Source: a virus
DNA: 38,967 bases
Strand: one strand, 5' to 3'
IMG/VR virus record: IMGVR_UViG_3300046530_000173
Coordinates: 1 to 38,967 of that record
The notes under the pieces are model-generated. The model did not search any database. It saw only the letters and a list, made by a program, of their open reading frames with translations, and was not told where the DNA came from. This document shows positions 15,588 to 24,087 of the stretch, piece by piece. The first letter of the stretch is position 1. Each line of letters begins with the position of its first letter. The translations under genes were made by a program, and so were the position numbers.

Positions 15588-15757
15588 AGTGTTTGATCCC
15601 CGGCGCGGCGTGCGATGCCTTCGGCCTGGCGCTGTTTGCTACATTTTCGGTGGTTGCCATGTGCCCGCGACTTGCTGCACTTGTCGCAGATGGTGTTCAG
15701 GTCGAGCGGGGCCATATGCCCTGCACGTATTTGGACTGTTCGGCGAAGGGGGCTCAT
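15584..15757 (-). CDS. 57-residue zinc-knuckle-like protein
   Basis: A small gene is joined to both neighbours by ATGA overlaps (start at 15757 on the stop of the upstream gene, stop on the excisionase ATG). The sequence contains CDKCSKSRAHGNHRKC, a Cys-x2-Cys with following His and Cys that could bind zinc, and is rich in Arg/Lys. The double coupling and the metal-binding pattern argue that it is real. Function is unknown; nucleic-acid binding is possible. Confidence 0.75.
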   Translation of the reverse strand: MSPLRRTVQIRAGHMAPLDLNTICDKCSKSRAHGNHRKCSKQRQAEGIARRAGDQTL

Positions 15758-16134
15758 GCGGCGGCCCCTTGATCAGCGGTATTGCTGATGCGGTTAGCCA
15801 GTTCGAGGATTTTTTGCGATTGTCTCTCTGCCTTCAGCTGGGTTGACTCGGTCCCAGGCATCGCGCGCCACGTCAATTGAGCGAGGATCAGCGTGGACCG
15901 GGCTTGCAAGAGAGTTTGATAGTCGGCCGACGTGAACATCGGTTCGTTTCTGGGCAGGCTGCTTAGACGGATGATGTCGTTGGTGAGTGCGGCTACTCGC
16001 TCCCGATGGTATGTCGCTTGGGACGCAATGCCCTTCGCAAACGCTCGATGAATCGCTTTGCGGACGAAATAGGCCATCAACATGAGCCCGAGGGCTGAGC
16101 AGATAGCGATGATGGTCAGGTGTTGTGTTTGCAT
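15754..16134 (-). CDS. small membrane-anchored hypothetical protein
   Basis: This 126-residue protein has an N-terminal membrane helix (IIAICSALGLMLMAYFV, residues 8-24), then a basic stretch and a helical cytoplasmic part. The RBS TGAGG lies in GAGGAACACAGCACATG, a start region shared with other genes of this operon. Just upstream is one of the conserved-loop hairpins (16155-16194). No family is recognised. Confidence 0.7.
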   Translation of the reverse strand: MQTQHLTIIAICSALGLMLMAYFVRKAIHRAFAKGIASQATYHRERVAALTNDIIRLSSLPRNEPMFTSADYQTLLQARSTLILAQLTWRAMPGTESTQLKAERQSQKILELANRISNTADQGAAA

Positions 16135-16154
16135 GTGCTGTGTTCCTCAGTAGA

Positions 16155-16194: not shown

Positions 16195-16210
16195 TATTGC
16201 TTAGGCTTTG

Positions 16211-17032
16211 TTAAAGGGTGGCTTCGTACAGTGGTACGTCACCGATTGCGCTCTGGATTTTCTGGCGAACGGCGTTGTAGGCCTCTTCAAGCACCTTGTC
16301 AGGGCGCACCAGCTCGAACCACATTTGCAGGCGACCTTCCAGAATGCGATAGCGGAAACGGGCAGGGACGCAGAAGGCGTCACCGCCAAGGAACGGTTTC
16401 ACGGCAATGAAGAATTGTTCGGGGATGCGCAGTTGACCTGCTTCGCCGGCACGACCGTCGATTTCTTCGTTGTAGGTCAGTTGAACCTGGCCGTTGTCGA
16501 GTCGGGTGCCTTGGCGGAAGGTGATATTTTTCTTGGCTTCCAGAGTGCGGCTGATCTCCAGCATGTCGGCAGCGCTTGGGTCGTTTGCTTCGTTTTCGCG
16601 CTGGGTGATGTCCTTGACGTTCTCTTCAATGAACTCGGCGAAGGTGGCCTGATCCATGCGCTTGCGATCGGTTTCTTTCCAGCGGCCCCACTCGATGGTG
16701 GTCGGGCAGCGGTAAGTGGCGATGTGGTCGCGCCAGGCTGGACTGGTTGGTTGGTGATAGTCGATGACAGCCGAGAAAGTGCGGCCCTCGGGGCCATTGC
16801 AGAACACTGCGGTAGCGGCATCGGCGAAGCGGTTCACGTATGCAATGAACGATTCTGCATCCAGGACCGTGAGTTTCTGACGCGTGCGAGTGGGGTTCGG
16901 CAGCAGGTGTTCAAGGGAGTGGACGCCCACGCCGGCAGGAAGCAGGGAAATGGGGGCTGCCAGCCCTTGATGATCAATCGGTTTGCCGATCGCCTGTGCG
17001 AGGGTGACCAGTTCTTGAATTGCTTGTTGCAT
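16211..17032 (-). CDS. DUF2303 (YfdQ-like) protein
   Basis: This 273-residue protein is of the DUF2303 family, seen in early regions of many lambdoid and Pseudomonas prophages. Typical parts are the VNRFADAATAVF segment (near residues 66-77), AVIDYHQP and WRDHIATYRCP in the middle, and a conserved C-terminal barrel-like half. The biochemical role is not known to me. The start context GGAGCACAGCCAATG resembles those of neighbouring genes. Confidence 0.85.
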   Translation of the reverse strand: MQQAIQELVTLAQAIGKPIDHQGLAAPISLLPAGVGVHSLEHLLPNPTRTRQKLTVLDAESFIAYVNRFADAATAVFCNGPEGRTFSAVIDYHQPTSPAWRDHIATYRCPTTIEWGRWKETDRKRMDQATFAEFIEENVKDITQRENEANDPSAADMLEISRTLEAKKNITFRQGTRLDNGQVQLTYNEEIDGRAGEAGQLRIPEQFFIAVKPFLGGDAFCVPARFRYRILEGRLQMWFELVRPDKVLEEAYNAVRQKIQSAIGDVPLYEATL

Positions 17033-17427: not shown

Positions 17428-17486
17428 GTGCTGTGCCTCATTGAGTTGATGTTGTTTGCCCCTGGCCGGCAGGGGTCACCGTTGAA

Positions 17487-17732
17487 TCAGGCCGCTTGCT
17501 TCGCCGCTTGGGCATCCAGGTAGGCGGCCAGGTCGTGCAGGTAAACAACTGCGGTGCCTTTGTTTCCTGATCCGCCTAGGCGGGTGACTTTCAATTCGAT
17601 TCGGCCAGCGCTGATGCGGCGTAGCAGGTACCGATCGCTAGATATGTGAGAGAAGTAGCGCTCGCGGATGGCTGATAGCGTTGGGCATGGTGTCGCCCAT
17701 TCCTTTCGCAATTGGTCGATGGTGTTGCTCAC
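17487..17732 (-). CDS. PrtN-family transcriptional activator
   Basis: This 81-residue protein is of the pyocin activator PrtN family. The match is PTLSAIRERYFSH (residues 17-29), an RRISAGRIELKVTRLGG segment (38-54) and the C-terminal VVYLHDLAAYLDAQ (62-75), which follow the family layout. In P. aeruginosa PrtN binds P-boxes (tandem ATTGnn(n)GTnn(n)) and turns on pyocin genes after PrtR is cleaved. Here the gene is in the repressor-controlled leftward operon, and a P-box-like array stands at 24619-24659 before the late genes. The start is GTG at 17732, overlapping the previous stop. Confidence 0.75.
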   Translation of the reverse strand: MSNTIDQLRKEWATPCPTLSAIRERYFSHISSDRYLLRRISAGRIELKVTRLGGSGNKGTAVVYLHDLAAYLDAQAAKQAA

Positions 17733-18112
17733 GCGGCGTCCTCCCCGAACCCCTCCGTAGGGGGCAGCAACTTGAGGCGGATCAACTCGGCGAGACCTTC
17801 TTTGCTTTTGCCCTTTGCTGCAGCGCAGATTTGGCCCTTGTCGTCAGCTACCACGGCGCCGAATGGATATTCGGGCGAATTGGTAGGGGTCACGTAAGCG
17901 ACCTGACCCTCTTGAATCACGCTGTTGACGCAGCGGAACACTTCAGCAAGTTCAACAGTGCGGCATGGGATGCTGTCCAGCAGATCAATGGCTTCGCTCG
18001 CTGCGCCGATGAGCGTTGCGCGGCTGACCACGCCCGGGCTGTCCAAATAGATCGGAATCAGTCGAAGGGCGCCGAGTGCTTGGGTGTAGGCATTGAAGTA
18101 GTTGGTTGTCAT
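17729..18112 (-). CDS. hypothetical early protein
   Basis: This 127-residue protein starts at ATG 18112, overlapping the stop of the KilA-C-like gene (ATGA). It ends on the GTG of the PrtN-like gene. The N-terminal half is helical; the C-terminal half contains YPFGAVVADDKGQICAAAKG (a beta hairpin). The family is not recognised. Coupling to both neighbours supports its reality. Confidence 0.7.
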   Translation of the reverse strand: MTTNYFNAYTQALGALRLIPIYLDSPGVVSRATLIGAASEAIDLLDSIPCRTVELAEVFRCVNSVIQEGQVAYVTPTNSPEYPFGAVVADDKGQICAAAKGKSKEGLAELIRLKLLPPTEGFGEDAA

Positions 18113-18394: not shown

Positions 18395-18769
18395 TCAGGC
18401 TGCGAGCAGTTTTCGAACGTTGCTCAGCAGTGCTTCTGACTCGGCCAGCATCCGCTGTATTTGAGATGCGGTATCCGGTTGCTCTGTTGGCGGCGTAGGC
18501 TCTGCCGACTCAATACGCCCGTTCGCGATGTCCTGGATGAAATCCCGCAGATGCAGGTGATTCGCGCGATCTGAACGCTTGAGAGTCAATTCGCCGGTGT
18601 AGCCGCCGAAGTCAACGCTAATAACTGCGCTGTCATCGGTGAGCTCTACTTCAAAGCTTGCATGGATGGTTTGCTCTGGTCGTTGAAGAGGGCATACGGC
18701 CGCACCGCCAACCTGGAGCATGTGATGCAGCAGATCTTGTTTTGCGAGAGGGATGAGGTAGCTGTTCAT
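18395..18769 (-). CDS. hypothetical early protein
   Basis: This is a 124-residue protein with no recognised domain. A beta-rich centre (HASFEVELTDDSAVISVDFG near residue 37) is followed by a helical C-terminus (MLAESEALLSNVRKLLAA). It overlaps the operon's first gene by 4 bases. Confidence 0.65.
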   Translation of the reverse strand: MNSYLIPLAKQDLLHHMLQVGGAAVCPLQRPEQTIHASFEVELTDDSAVISVDFGGYTGELTLKRSDRANHLHLRDFIQDIANGRIESAEPTPPTEQPDTASQIQRMLAESEALLSNVRKLLAA

Positions 18770-18972
18770 GCTGCATCACCTCCGAACGGCCAAGTGCTGA
18801 CATCCGCTGCGGCGGTATCGACAGGCTGGACGGCCTCGGTGCGGCCTTTGGGGTTGGCGATCACTAGCAGCCCTGTACGGTGCTGGATGGCCTCGACTGC
18901 TGCGCGGCTACTGCATGCAGAAGGGTGTAGGTAGACCGGGCAGCGGGTATTGCTGTGCTGTGTGGTTTGCAT
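18766..18972 (-). CDS. first gene of leftward early operon, hypothetical
   Basis: This 68-residue protein starts at ATG 18972, only 2 bases after a 5'-terminal hairpin. Two Cys near the N-terminus (NTRCPVYLHPSACSS) and the rest of the sequence do not identify a family. As the first gene behind the leftward promoter it should be made earliest. The usual RBS is absent apart from GAG within the hairpin's 3' arm, so its translation is likely to depend on that structure. Confidence 0.6.
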   Translation of the reverse strand: MQTTQHSNTRCPVYLHPSACSSRAAVEAIQHRTGLLVIANPKGRTEAVQPVDTAAADVSTWPFGGDAA

Positions 18973-18974
18973 AT

Positions 18975-19003
18975 CTCGTACTCTTTGGTGAGAGGTGTAC
19001 GAG
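18975..19003 (-). ncRNA. conserved-loop hairpin H4 at the 5' end of the leftward mRNA
   Basis: On the minus strand CTCGTAC pairs perfectly with GTACGAG (7 bp) around the loop ACCTCTCACCAAAGA. The -10 of the leftward promoter ends at 19008, so transcription should start within a few bases of the hairpin's first base. The hairpin ends 2 bases before the first start codon. The untranslated leader is therefore essentially this element. Confidence 0.75.
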
Positions 19004-19007
19004 GCAA

Positions 19008-19036
19008 ACTATACGAATGCTCATAAATGCAGTCAA
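19008..19036 (-). promoter_or_regulatory. leftward early promoter
   Basis: On the minus strand TTGACT (19036-19031) and TATAGT (19013-19008) are separated by 17 bases, a near-consensus sigma-70 promoter. It drives the long minus-strand early operon. Repressor-like operators overlap both hexamers. Confidence 0.85.
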
Positions 19037-19049
19037 TGCGAATTTGCAT
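19011..19049. promoter_or_regulatory. candidate operators at the leftward promoter
   Basis: ATACGAATGCTCAT (19011-19024) covers the -10, and ATGCGAATTTGCAT (19036-19049, a palindrome with two mismatched positions) abuts the -35. Both share AT(A/G)CGAA and a 14-base AT-N10-AT form with sites between cI and cro. Control by CI or Cro is inferred. Confidence 0.6.
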
Positions 19050-19068
19050 AAGTGGTCGTGCAGGTGTT

Positions 19069-19093
19069 AAAAAACCCGCTCAATGGCGGGTTT
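19069..19093 (-). terminator. terminator of the repressor gene
   Basis: AAACCCGC/GCGGGTTT (8 bp, loop TCAATG) lies 36 bases after the repressor stop on the minus strand, with a T run on that strand. It separates the repressor transcript from the leftward early promoter. Confidence 0.85.
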
Positions 19094-19128
19094 CACTTAA
19101 CTTTGGAATAAGCTGAGGTTAGTGCTGG

Positions 19129-19800
19129 TTAACCGACCCCGCCGCCTCTCCATATCACGCGCCCCAGGAATGGCATTTCATGAATAGCTTCTTCGGTCGC
19201 TGGCTCATCTGGATTGGCTATTTTATCCGCGTTGTCGCTTCGAATGACCCAGCTGCCGGAGAGCTGCTGGGTTAACCTTTTAATGCTGTTGCCGCCGTCT
19301 GGCCTGCGTATTACGTAGACTTGCTTGTCTCTCGGCTCTGTCTGCGACGTATCGAAAAGTACAACGTCCCCATCGAAAATGTATGGCTCCATGCTGTCGC
19401 CTTCGGCATAAATGACATACAGATTTTCAGGTTTCGCTTTCATGCGCTGCAACCAGTCACGCTTGAAAGCGAGGCCCTCGGTCGTTTGTACATGCTCATT
19501 AAGGTAGCCATGTCCGCACGAACCTTTGGCCTTGAATTGTGGAATCAACGCGTAATCCTTTGCGCTTGGCGAGCCATCTCTTGCCGGTTCGGATTCACTG
19601 CCGAAAAGAAGCCAGTCCGGGGTAACGCCAAGTGGCCGCGAAAGCGCTTCCAGCGTTGATTTTCTTGGGCTTGAGCTTTCGCCGGATAAAATTCGGTTGA
19701 TGGTAGGTTGTGGTACCGAGGACCTGCGACTTAGCTGGCTCTCGTTCAATCCAACCTCGCGCATCTTGGCTCGAAGGCGCTCTGCAATTTCCACCGGCAC
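19129..19800 (-). CDS. cI: CI-like repressor with S24 autoprotease domain
   Basis: This lysogeny repressor has an N-terminal helix-turn-helix (LNESQLSRRSSVPQPTINRI), a linker, then a LexA/CI peptidase domain: cleavage region KGSCGHG, catalytic Ser in EGDSMEPYIFDGDVV and Lys in NSIKRL. RecA-stimulated self-cleavage should induce the phage. The frame is open up to 19902, but that would run through the cro promoter. I prefer GTG 19800 (223 residues), which begins just before the first predicted helix. No Shine-Dalgarno precedes it, so a leaderless or near-leaderless mRNA is likely. The exact start is uncertain; the identity is firm. Confidence 0.9.
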   Translation of the reverse strand: MPVEIAERLRAKMREVGLNESQLSRRSSVPQPTINRILSGESSSPRKSTLEALSRPLGVTPDWLLFGSESEPARDGSPSAKDYALIPQFKAKGSCGHGYLNEHVQTTEGLAFKRDWLQRMKAKPENLYVIYAEGDSMEPYIFDGDVVLFDTSQTEPRDKQVYVIRRPDGGNSIKRLTQQLSGSWVIRSDNADKIANPDEPATEEAIHEMPFLGRVIWRGGGVG

Positions 19801-19818
19801 ACCATACGTTTTTGAATT

Positions 19819-19856
19819 ATGCGAATTGTATTGCTTCGAGTTATCCGTTTTCGTAT
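19819..19856. promoter_or_regulatory. candidate operators between cI and cro
   Basis: ATGCGAA at 19819-19825 and inverted ATACGAA at 19850-19856 (within ATCCGTTTTCGTAT, 19843-19856) flank and overlap the rightward promoter. They share the half-site seen twice at the leftward promoter. Confidence 0.6.
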
Positions 19857-19859
19857 GAT
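19831..19859 (+). promoter_or_regulatory. rightward early promoter (PR-like)
   Basis: TTGCTT (19831-19836) and TATGAT (19854-19859) have a 17-base spacer. Transcription would begin near 19866, 25 bases before cro. It is the only good promoter in front of cro and the replication operon. Confidence 0.8.
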
Positions 19860-19890
19860 TTGCTATGAGAAAGCTCATGGGAACAGAGTC

Positions 19891-20088
19891 ATGACAATTC
19901 AAGAGATGCTTACCTACTTGGCGGTTCGGGGTTATTCCCAGCAGGCGATCGCCGATAAGGTCGGGTCAACACAGCCGACTATTCATCGTGCCAGTAAGGG
20001 CGCGGGTATTTCTTACGAGACGGGAAAGGCCATTGAGTGCCTTTACCTTCTCGAGAAAGAAGCGGCTGATCGAGAGTCAGCGCTTTAA
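19891..20088 (+). CDS. cro: Cro-like repressor
   Basis: This 65-residue protein is mainly a helix-turn-helix: GYSQQAIADKVGSTQPTIHRASKG (about residues 14-37). It is divergent from the CI gene and is the first gene of the rightward transcript, the lambdoid cro position. The frame is open upstream, but ATG 19891 fits the promoter and fold. It would shut down CI synthesis and, later, early transcription. Confidence 0.82.
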   Translation: MTIQEMLTYLAVRGYSQQAIADKVGSTQPTIHRASKGAGISYETGKAIECLYLLEKEAADRESAL

Positions 20089-20096
20089 AGGGTGCC

Positions 20097-20132
20097 GGGC
20101 TGGGGCCTCTCACCATAAGAATCCCCCAGCCC
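20097..20132 (+). ncRNA. conserved-loop hairpin H1
   Basis: GGGCTGGGG (20097-20105) pairs perfectly with CCCCAGCCC (20124-20132). The loop is CCTCTCACCATAAGAATC. It begins 8 bases after the cro stop. It is not a terminator because no T run follows. Confidence 0.75.
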
Positions 20133-20175
20133 AGCGTGGCGATACGCAGCACATACCGTACCGCCAGATGAAGCA

Positions 20176-20213
20176 CCGGCCTGCAACCTCTCACCAAAGA
20201 AACTCCAGGCCGG
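20176..20213 (+). ncRNA. conserved-loop hairpin H2
   Basis: CCGGCCTG (20176-20183) pairs perfectly with CAGGCCGG (20206-20213). The 22-base loop contains CCTCTCACCAAAGAAACTC. The stem is unrelated to those of H1 and H3. Confidence 0.75.
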
Positions 20214-20254
20214 AAGTAACGAAATACACGTACATGCAAGTCGCTACATAGCGC

Positions 20255-20296
20255 GTCGGCTCAGGACCTCTCACCATAAGAATCCCCTGGGCCGAC
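20255..20296 (+). ncRNA. conserved-loop hairpin H3
   Basis: GTCGGCTCAGG (20255-20265) pairs with CCTGGGCCGAC (20286-20296) over 11 bp with one U-G pair. The loop is ACCTCTCACCATAAGAATCC. The spacing of the loop motifs in H1-H3 is about 80 bp (20106, 20187, 20267). Confidence 0.75.
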
Positions 20297-20383
20297 TGGA
20301 ACGATGAACCGTGCTGCACAGCACGATTCGCACAGCACATCGGTCGTGGTCGTAGAATAGAGCGTGTTTGGTTCTACGGCCAC

Positions 20384-20406
20384 ACCGTAAATAGGGGATT
20401 TACGGT
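20384..20406 (+). promoter_or_regulatory. hairpin presenting the ribosome binding site of the CII-like gene
   Basis: ACCGTAAAT (20384-20392) and ATTTACGGT (20398-20406) form a perfect 9-bp stem, with the loop AGGGG as the only Shine-Dalgarno candidate; the ATG follows at 20408. A second stem GTAGAA/TTCTAC lies just upstream (about 20352-20377). The loop AGGGG could pair with CCTCT of the H1-H3 loops (5 pairs, one G-U). Confidence 0.65.
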
Positions 20407-20407
20407 T

Positions 20408-20896
20408 ATGAGTCGCACAGATCTTTTGCCGGGCGCAGGTCCGGTCCTTTCGCTACGCAAAGCCCTTTACCGGGCAGGCCATGATTATCGGGGCGGTGTG
20501 ACTGCTCTGGCACTGGACATGGTCATCGATTACGACACCCTCCAGAAGAAGCTAAAGCACGACGAAGAGCGCCGGTGGCTTGATCCTGATGAGCTCGAAG
20601 AGGTAATACGCCTGACGGCCAACCCCTTGGTGCTGGACGCCCTGATGCGGCCCGCTGGTATGGTTTGGTACAAGCCGGAAGCGGCGGCGCCGACCAAGGA
20701 AGCTTTGCTGGCAGTCAGCAAGGTGCTGCACCAGACCGGCCTGTTTGTTTCCAGCATGCACGAAGGTGCTGCCGACAACGTCTGGGAACAGCACGAAGTG
20801 GAATGCCTGGAGAAGCACGGCACGGACGTTATCCGCGCGGTGTTGGGCATCATGGCCGGGGCCAGGGAAGCGATGGAGGCCCGCCAAGATGACTGA
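20408..20896 (+). CDS. CII-like phage regulatory protein
   Basis: This 162-residue protein is of the phage regulatory CII family (P2/CP76 type). Characteristic are SLRKALYRAGHDYRGGVTALAL (residues 16-37), YDTLQKKLKHDEERRWLDPDELEEVIRLT with its helix-turn-helix-like layout (42-70), and the PAGMVWY segment near 82. Members act in the lysis-lysogeny decision. A 319-base structured leader separates it from cro. The 3' end overlaps the next gene by 8 bases. Confidence 0.85.
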   Translation: MSRTDLLPGAGPVLSLRKALYRAGHDYRGGVTALALDMVIDYDTLQKKLKHDEERRWLDPDELEEVIRLTANPLVLDALMRPAGMVWYKPEAAAPTKEALLAVSKVLHQTGLFVSSMHEGAADNVWEQHEVECLEKHGTDVIRAVLGIMAGAREAMEARQDD

Positions 20897-23797: not shown

Positions 23798-24087
23798 TGT
23801 TGGGTGTGTTGGGTGTGTGTCGGGTTGGTTTTTGCTACCCAACACAGTTTCAGTCCTTTATTTACGCGGGTTTCCGGCTGTTGTGTTGGGTGTGTTGGGT
23901 TTGGTGTCGCGCGCGCGCATGCGTGACGTTATTTGCATTGAAGACGATGGGAAGTTTTTTTTCTTATGCGAGGAAAGAAAAACCCAACAAACCCAACACA
24001 CTCAACTCAACGTTAATAAAGTTATTGATTTTAAAGGGATTTATTTGTGTTGGGTTTGTGTCGGGTTGCGGGTTTTCTGTGTTGGGT
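23798..24087. repeat. iteron-like TGTTGGGT array, candidate replication origin
   Basis: Nine exact copies of TGTTGGGT lie in 290 bp: direct at 23798, 23807, 23884, 23893, 24048 and 24080, inverted at 23837, 23982 and 23991. Two TGTCGGGT variants are at 23818 and 24059. Three pairs have an identical 9-bp step. An AT-rich stretch (24011-24046) lies among them, and an alternating CG run is at about 23908-23919. This is the organisation of an iteron origin, next to the replication gene. A 111-residue open frame spans it but looks repeat-driven (see rejected items). Confidence 0.6.

Follow-up and report, generated by a model that had tools for sequence, protein, structure and literature searches.

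Three to six small hairpins mark the starts of the early messages in temperate Pseudomonas phages and in at least one relative, and within a phage the loop of these hairpins is identical. Between phages the loop differs, and this phage-specificity together with the concordance among copies is the main new finding of the analysis, going beyond the single sequence on which the preliminary description was based. From the family, its fixed positions, its compensated stems and its phage-specific concordant loops, all of which are observed, we infer a function: the hairpins form one family of regulatory RNA signals whose likeliest role, by analogy with nut and put sites, would be processive antitermination (probability roughly 45%). 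They point to an undescribed RNA-based control system.

The features concerned are given below in the coordinates of the window, i.e. the whole stretch of 38,967 bases that was analysed; the term reader is used for the factor that would recognize the loops.

15754-16134, minus strand: ORF of 126 aa without PHROG match, downstream of L3
16155-16194, minus strand: L3, strong hairpin in the intergenic space that follows yfdQ; loop CCUCUCACCAAGA; z -5.7
16211-17032, minus strand: yfdQ homologue (DUF2303), downstream of L2
17041-17076, minus strand: L2, weak 5-bp stem overlapping and just 5' of the yfdQ (DUF2303) Shine-Dalgarno sequence
17729-18112, minus strand: g122, pL-operon protein of 127 aa (phrog_8889); weak candidate reader
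18766-18972, minus strand: g68, leading gene of the pL operon (68-aa product, phrog_13491); position like that of N, protein not N-like
18975-19003, minus strand: L1, hairpin with a CUCGUAC...GUACGAG stem and a loop with CCUCUCACCAAAGA; z -4.3; the entire predicted 5' UTR of the pL transcript, with 2 nt to the ATG of the first gene
19008-19036, minus strand: predicted pL promoter, TTGACT-17-TATAGT
19129-19869, minus strand: cI-like repressor gene
19891-20088, plus strand: cro-like gene, directly 5' of R1
20097-20132, plus strand: R1, 8 nt past the cro stop codon; loop CCUCUCACCAUAAGAA; z -3.8
20176-20213, plus strand: R2, second tandem copy; loop CCUCUCACCAAAGAAA; z -4.6
20255-20296, plus strand: R3, third tandem copy; loop CCUCUCACCAUAAGAA; z -4.4; its class was used for covariation
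20348-20381: inverted repeat GGTCGTAGAA...TTCTACGGCC before cII
20408-20896, plus strand: cII (Phage_CP76), 3' of the R array

The 9-mer CCTCTCACC occurs exactly six times on the two strands of the 38,967 bases, where 0.26 copies are expected, and was never found more than twice in any of 100 shuffles of the window. All six matches fall at the hairpins and none outside them, each oriented in the direction of transcription. The six hairpins with one shared loop that the preliminary description had reported were thereby borne out, and its stem lengths (9, 5, 7, 9, 8 and 11 bp) proved about right. Its loop, CCTCTCACCA-N-AAGAA, held in the portion CCTCTCACCA, which is common to all six copies; the AAGAA tail is exact only at 20106 and 20267, the other copies showing two mismatches, three mismatches and, in two cases, more. 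RNA folding showed strong structures for five of the hairpins (z -3.8 to -5.7), each with an inner UCU-AGA mini-stem inside the loop displaying CACCA(N)(A). The sixth, L2, with its 5 bp, folds about as well as shuffled sequence (z -1.0, with 35 of 200 shuffles equally good), which qualifies the earlier statement that all six stems pair. The preliminary placement of one hairpin at the +1 of the leftward mRNA and of three in tandem after cro agrees with the predicted pL promoter, which precedes L1, and with the first R copy, which starts 8 bases past the cro stop. The R copies are located in the untranslated gap between cro and cII.

The hairpin family is real and under selection. Well over 100 phages and prophages of Pseudomonas have hairpins at the same positions, namely the predicted pL +1 and the cro-cII gap, the latter with two or three copies, while loci with a yfdQ module have further copies 5' and 3' of yfdQ. 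Relatives were collected in three scans: in viral contigs, 43 stretches came from exact matching of 16 bases and 104 from tandem loops; in species genomes the tandem scan gave 73 stretches, 14 of them Pseudomonas, and its matches outside Pseudomonas were mostly chance or unrelated repeats. Copy sets of 3R+3L, 2R+3L and 2R+2L were identified and the smallest is 2R+1L, so that L1 and two R copies form the core; L2 and L3 accompany the yfdQ module, which is missing from putida-type loci. Among 322 distinct copies from the 100 or more related loci, the flanking stem has a mode of 7-8 bp, compared with 3-4 bp when sites are random or arms re-dealt. Two-sided changes were seen in six of seven pairs of the last R hairpin; the compensated cells number 49, compared with 18 for shuffled data, and none of 500 shuffles reached 49. 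The longer stems and the compensation confirm that a loop kept on free stems marks a selected RNA structure, as had been proposed from the window, and the conservation of loop, positions and pairing in over 100 loci answers the check in related phages that accompanied that proposal. A promoter-like match is present in 69 leaders, in which the L1 stem mostly begins 3-5 nt past the -10 element and the ATG mostly lies 1-3 nt past the 3' arm; the L1 hairpin thus makes up about the whole 5' UTR. The L2 stem of some relatives encloses both the Shine-Dalgarno sequence and the start codon.

Relatives with other loops were located through g68, the first pL protein, or through cII. The loop differs between phages and agrees within each, with the forms CUCUCACC, CCUCUAC, CUCACCA, CUUACCA, CUCUGAC and CCCACCAC. 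CUCUCAC is the loop of phages Lodos, Turba and Meadow, CCUCUAC that of LPPA56, CUCACCA that of vB_PstS-pAN (pAN), CUUACCA that of PG1, CCCACCAC that of Halomonas phage vB_HmeY_H4907 and CUCUGAC that of the prophage in G180 (locus L426). Most proteins of Lodos and LPPA56 are 90-100% identical, and the loops of L1, R1, R2 and L3 are all different between the two. The concordance extends to a single loop base, C or U: every one of 54 P. stutzeri-type loci (mean of 3.3 scored copies per locus) has this base the same in all detected copies, and the g68 tree shows four switches of it. This count leaves aside the stutzeri-like loci L365, L382, L389, L390, L395 and L409, in which the pattern did not score; within-phage agreement is strong rather than absolute, since L389, L390 and L395 have mixed C and U copies. 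Such phage-specific, concordant loops argue for a trans-acting, co-evolving, phage-borne reader of all copies. With stems that vary freely, a loop peculiar to each phage and agreement to the single base across both early operons, the hairpins offer a genetic system in which a new RNA reader could be found, and natural loop-swap pairs for direct testing exist in Lodos and LPPA56 and in the C and U types of stutzeri.

Antitermination is the likeliest role because the smallest set consists of one copy at the start of pL and two after cro. Positions like those of nut and put sites, at the predicted pL +1 and after cro, had been noted in the window and are kept in over 100 loci. The stem would display a short loop of pyrimidine-ACC type, which in this phage reads CUCACC, and every copy carrying a phage's own loop would be recognized by that phage's reader. 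The signal would then modify RNA polymerase, allowing processive antitermination across untranslated gaps, with the yfdQ-linked copies serving as possible reloading sites; the untranslated cro-cII gap that holds the R array is a place where such a signal would be useful. L1, at the 5' end of the pL transcript, may in addition regulate how the first gene is translated, because no room is left for a free ribosome-binding site. The adjacency of L1 and L2 to start codons fits translational control equally well. No N/nut or put system is recognized in the early control of these common temperate phages of Pseudomonas, and the hairpins would add a kind of early control beside these two, or else a new RNA-RNA lysogeny switch.

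The hairpins resemble nutL/nutR of phage lambda, which act with N, and nutR1, nutR2 and nutL of coliphage mEp021 in being positioned on both early transcripts, and also in the small hairpin with a kept loop and a variable stem, in phage-specific recognition and possibly in having more than two sites; three nut sites are in use in mEp021 (PMC11893012). Unlike lambda nut, they occur without an excess of boxA and without an N-like protein, L1 starts at +1, and extra copies accompany the yfdQ module; the lambda boxB loop is purine-rich, whereas the loop here is pyrimidine-ACC. Canonical boxA with up to three mismatches was counted 47 times against 58 expected in shuffles, and no exact or near-exact boxA (GCUCUUUAACA-like) lies beside the hairpins, the matches at 16209 (minus strand) and 20080 (plus strand), with two to three mismatches, being at chance level. 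The scanned pL-operon proteins include no N-like Arg-rich protein and no family match to N, and g68 is not Arg-rich and is dispensable; both the boxA count and the protein scan thus agree with the absence of N and boxA stated previously. Like HK022 putL/putR, the present sites include one just after pL and one after cro and have no dedicated protein that could be recognized. It has been described that putL lies just 3' of PL and putR about 270 nt into PR, and that a put site measures about 70 nt and consists of two stem-loops (PMC9378689), whereas the hairpins here are single, of 29-42 nt, with the R copies in tandem; L1, a single 29-nt hairpin, lacks the two-stem-loop architecture. Furthermore, put is a cis-acting RNA that binds the zinc-binding domain of the RNA polymerase beta' subunit, and a cis-acting, host-binding RNA would not need loops that are concordant within phages and different between them. 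A comparison with Rfam, proposed at the outset, gave no match at gathering score among Rfam 15 covariance models, with only a sub-threshold Trp_leader match elsewhere and none to P4/P1-type RNAs. The literature search found no paper describing the loop in a phage and otherwise returned only known systems. The hairpins accordingly fall outside the nut family as tested, outside put by architecture and outside any Rfam family, and may still work alike.

The early proteins were considered as reader by elimination, and none fits in every case. Both cI and Cro were rejected, as each comprises many families for one loop: no fewer than six cI families (at 40% identity) accompany CCUCUCACC loops, and among them are the families of LPPA56 and Lodos, phages whose own loops differ. 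An N-like role for g68 was likewise rejected: the protein is identical in locus L335, where all copies are CUUACCA, and in L336, where all are CUCACCA, and it is missing from the 38-kb record L115, whose elements are intact, and replaced in L027, L059, L063 and L101. A dNMP kinase or another gene takes the place of g68 directly behind the L1 leader in L027, L059, L063, L101 and L115, and such replacements often keep the same first codons. Four prophages with g122 and no detected g68 possess hairpins with CUCUCACC- or CUCUCACA-type loops. The idea of a KH domain in g68, suggested by the YYAC loops, is unsupported because the predicted structure is poor (pLDDT 59). CII, KilAC, the zinc-finger protein, the primase and PrtN were set aside, since each shows about 97-100% identity when LPPA56 is compared with whichever of Lodos and Meadow is nearest, despite the loop switch. 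YfdP and YfdQ are not universal, as Lodos lacks yfdQ and putida-type loci lack both genes.

The protein g122 is a weak candidate reader and the best single candidate for a different function of the hairpins, namely that a phage-coded RNA-binding protein uses them as operators for the translation or decay of early mRNA, binding at L1 across the first gene's start codon, at L2 over the yfdQ ribosome-binding site and at the R copies in the cII leader. We regard this as rather unlikely. The end of L1 about 2 nt before the ATG and the L2 stems of relatives that enclose Shine-Dalgarno sequence and ATG would suit such operators, but the R copies lie away from start codons. The gene is carried by 144 of 147 loci, in Pseudomonas genomes 51 of 55 of its places lie 0.4-1.7 kb from g68, and the C/U state needs only two changes on its tree, compared with four on those of g68 and cI, five for the zinc-finger protein and six for KilAC; the trees of PrtN and YfdP, however, fit equally well with two changes. 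The C-terminal half of g122 is predicted to have an alpha-beta-beta-beta-alpha topology resembling a dsRBD (pLDDT 83), and this domain is all that putida-type prophages retain of g122. Its best Foldseek matches are the dsRBDs of DGCR8 (E 4e-3), and the VIA comparison with DGCR8 gave Z 5.3 (rmsd 3.0, 58 aligned), a score that unrelated folds equal: the top VIA rows include porphobilinogen deaminase, which is not RNA-binding, at Z about 6. No Pfam dsrm match was obtained among 24 g122 members by a search that drops most weak matches. Moreover, the elements persist in L434 and L255, which lack g122, and in the G180 prophage (L426), in which g122 is internally deleted to 60 aa, its N-terminal part being fused to the last helix, and g122 was looked for and not found in Halomonas phage H4907.

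Short complementary loops control several early-leader sites in the antisense immunity RNAs of P4 and P1. A reader of this kind would be an antisense RNA, a CII-activated leftward pE-type transcript over the R array with loops complementary to CCUCUCACCA, which would kiss the loops of L1-L3 and so shut the leftward operon when lysogeny is chosen. This is unlikely in our judgement, and equally so the boldest form of the proposal that one phage-specific reader, RNA or protein, recognizes free-stem loops in all early messages, in which the antisense strand of the R array is that reader; were it true, a CII-driven lysogeny transcript would silence several leftward genes through loop-loop pairing. 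The likeness to the P4 and P1 RNAs holds only for such an antisense RNA, and a protein repressor is present here, unlike in those systems. An antisense reader would outlast the loss of g68 or g122 because it requires no protein, and it would account for concordance between L and R copies down to single bases. The cII gene of the window belongs to the CP76 family, which we take to be the family of 186 CII. In phage 186, CII drives pE, which is convergent to pR (PMC6593788), and by analogy the inverted repeat at 20348-20381 may provide candidate half-sites for CII at a pE-type promoter directed leftward; pE here is a putative promoter only. Repeats like GGTCGTAGAA...TTCTACGGCC are also found in Lodos, LPPA56 and pAN. 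The strand test, which compared G.U with A.C departures from pairing and in which the R copies contradict each other, gave 19 A.C against 3 G.U for the first R stem, equivalent to G.U on the antisense strand, whereas the last R copy is reversed (11 G.U, 1 A.C), as for a sense structure, and L1 and L3 have no strand preference. The classes of R1 (20097-20132) and R3 (20255-20296) thus depart in opposite ways, as if paired on different strands. Many discordant cases have U in the L and C in the R copies, which a G in the antisense RNA would tolerate, but L395 has C in L and U in R.

It is highly improbable that the hairpins are start-associated or RNA-processing elements apart from antitermination, protecting the 5' end of the pL mRNA or serving as endonuclease sites. 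L1 is indeed a 5'-terminal hairpin, and start-associated repeats accompanied by inverted repeats are found in cluster K mycobacteriophages (PMC3203893); the distance of the R copies from starts and the phage-specific concordant loops are nevertheless left unexplained. The SAS/ESAS motifs of these mycobacteriophages are alike in being repeated, oriented motifs of unknown function at early-gene starts. SAS, however, has an invariant sequence of 13 bp and lies 3-7 bp ahead of starts, whereas here a loop stands on free stems and also far from starts; more than 100 nt separate the ends of the R copies from cII, and the loop motif is different, which places the hairpins outside SAS/ESAS.

Other elements were identified around these genes. 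A hairpin (20386-20406, CCGTAAA-TAGGGGA-TTTACGG) lies directly 5' of the cII start codon with the cII ribosome-binding site in its loop, and Lodos and LPPA56 have a similar one. A second short motif, (GG)ACACAGCAC(A), is found at 16135-16145, 17428-17438, 18955-18965 and 20314-20338 of the window, near start codons and in the stretch from the R copies to cII, and also in L196, L197, L195 and L199; ACACAGCAC is enriched in pAN and PG1, and in the window, at two mismatches, it shows no excess. The sequence ACACAGCA occurs eight times in 17 kb of pAN (0.5 expected). In the window, TGTTGGGT is present in 11 copies (1.2 expected), nine of which lie within 23798-24087 on both strands, just past the primase gene; this iteron-like cluster is a candidate replication origin.
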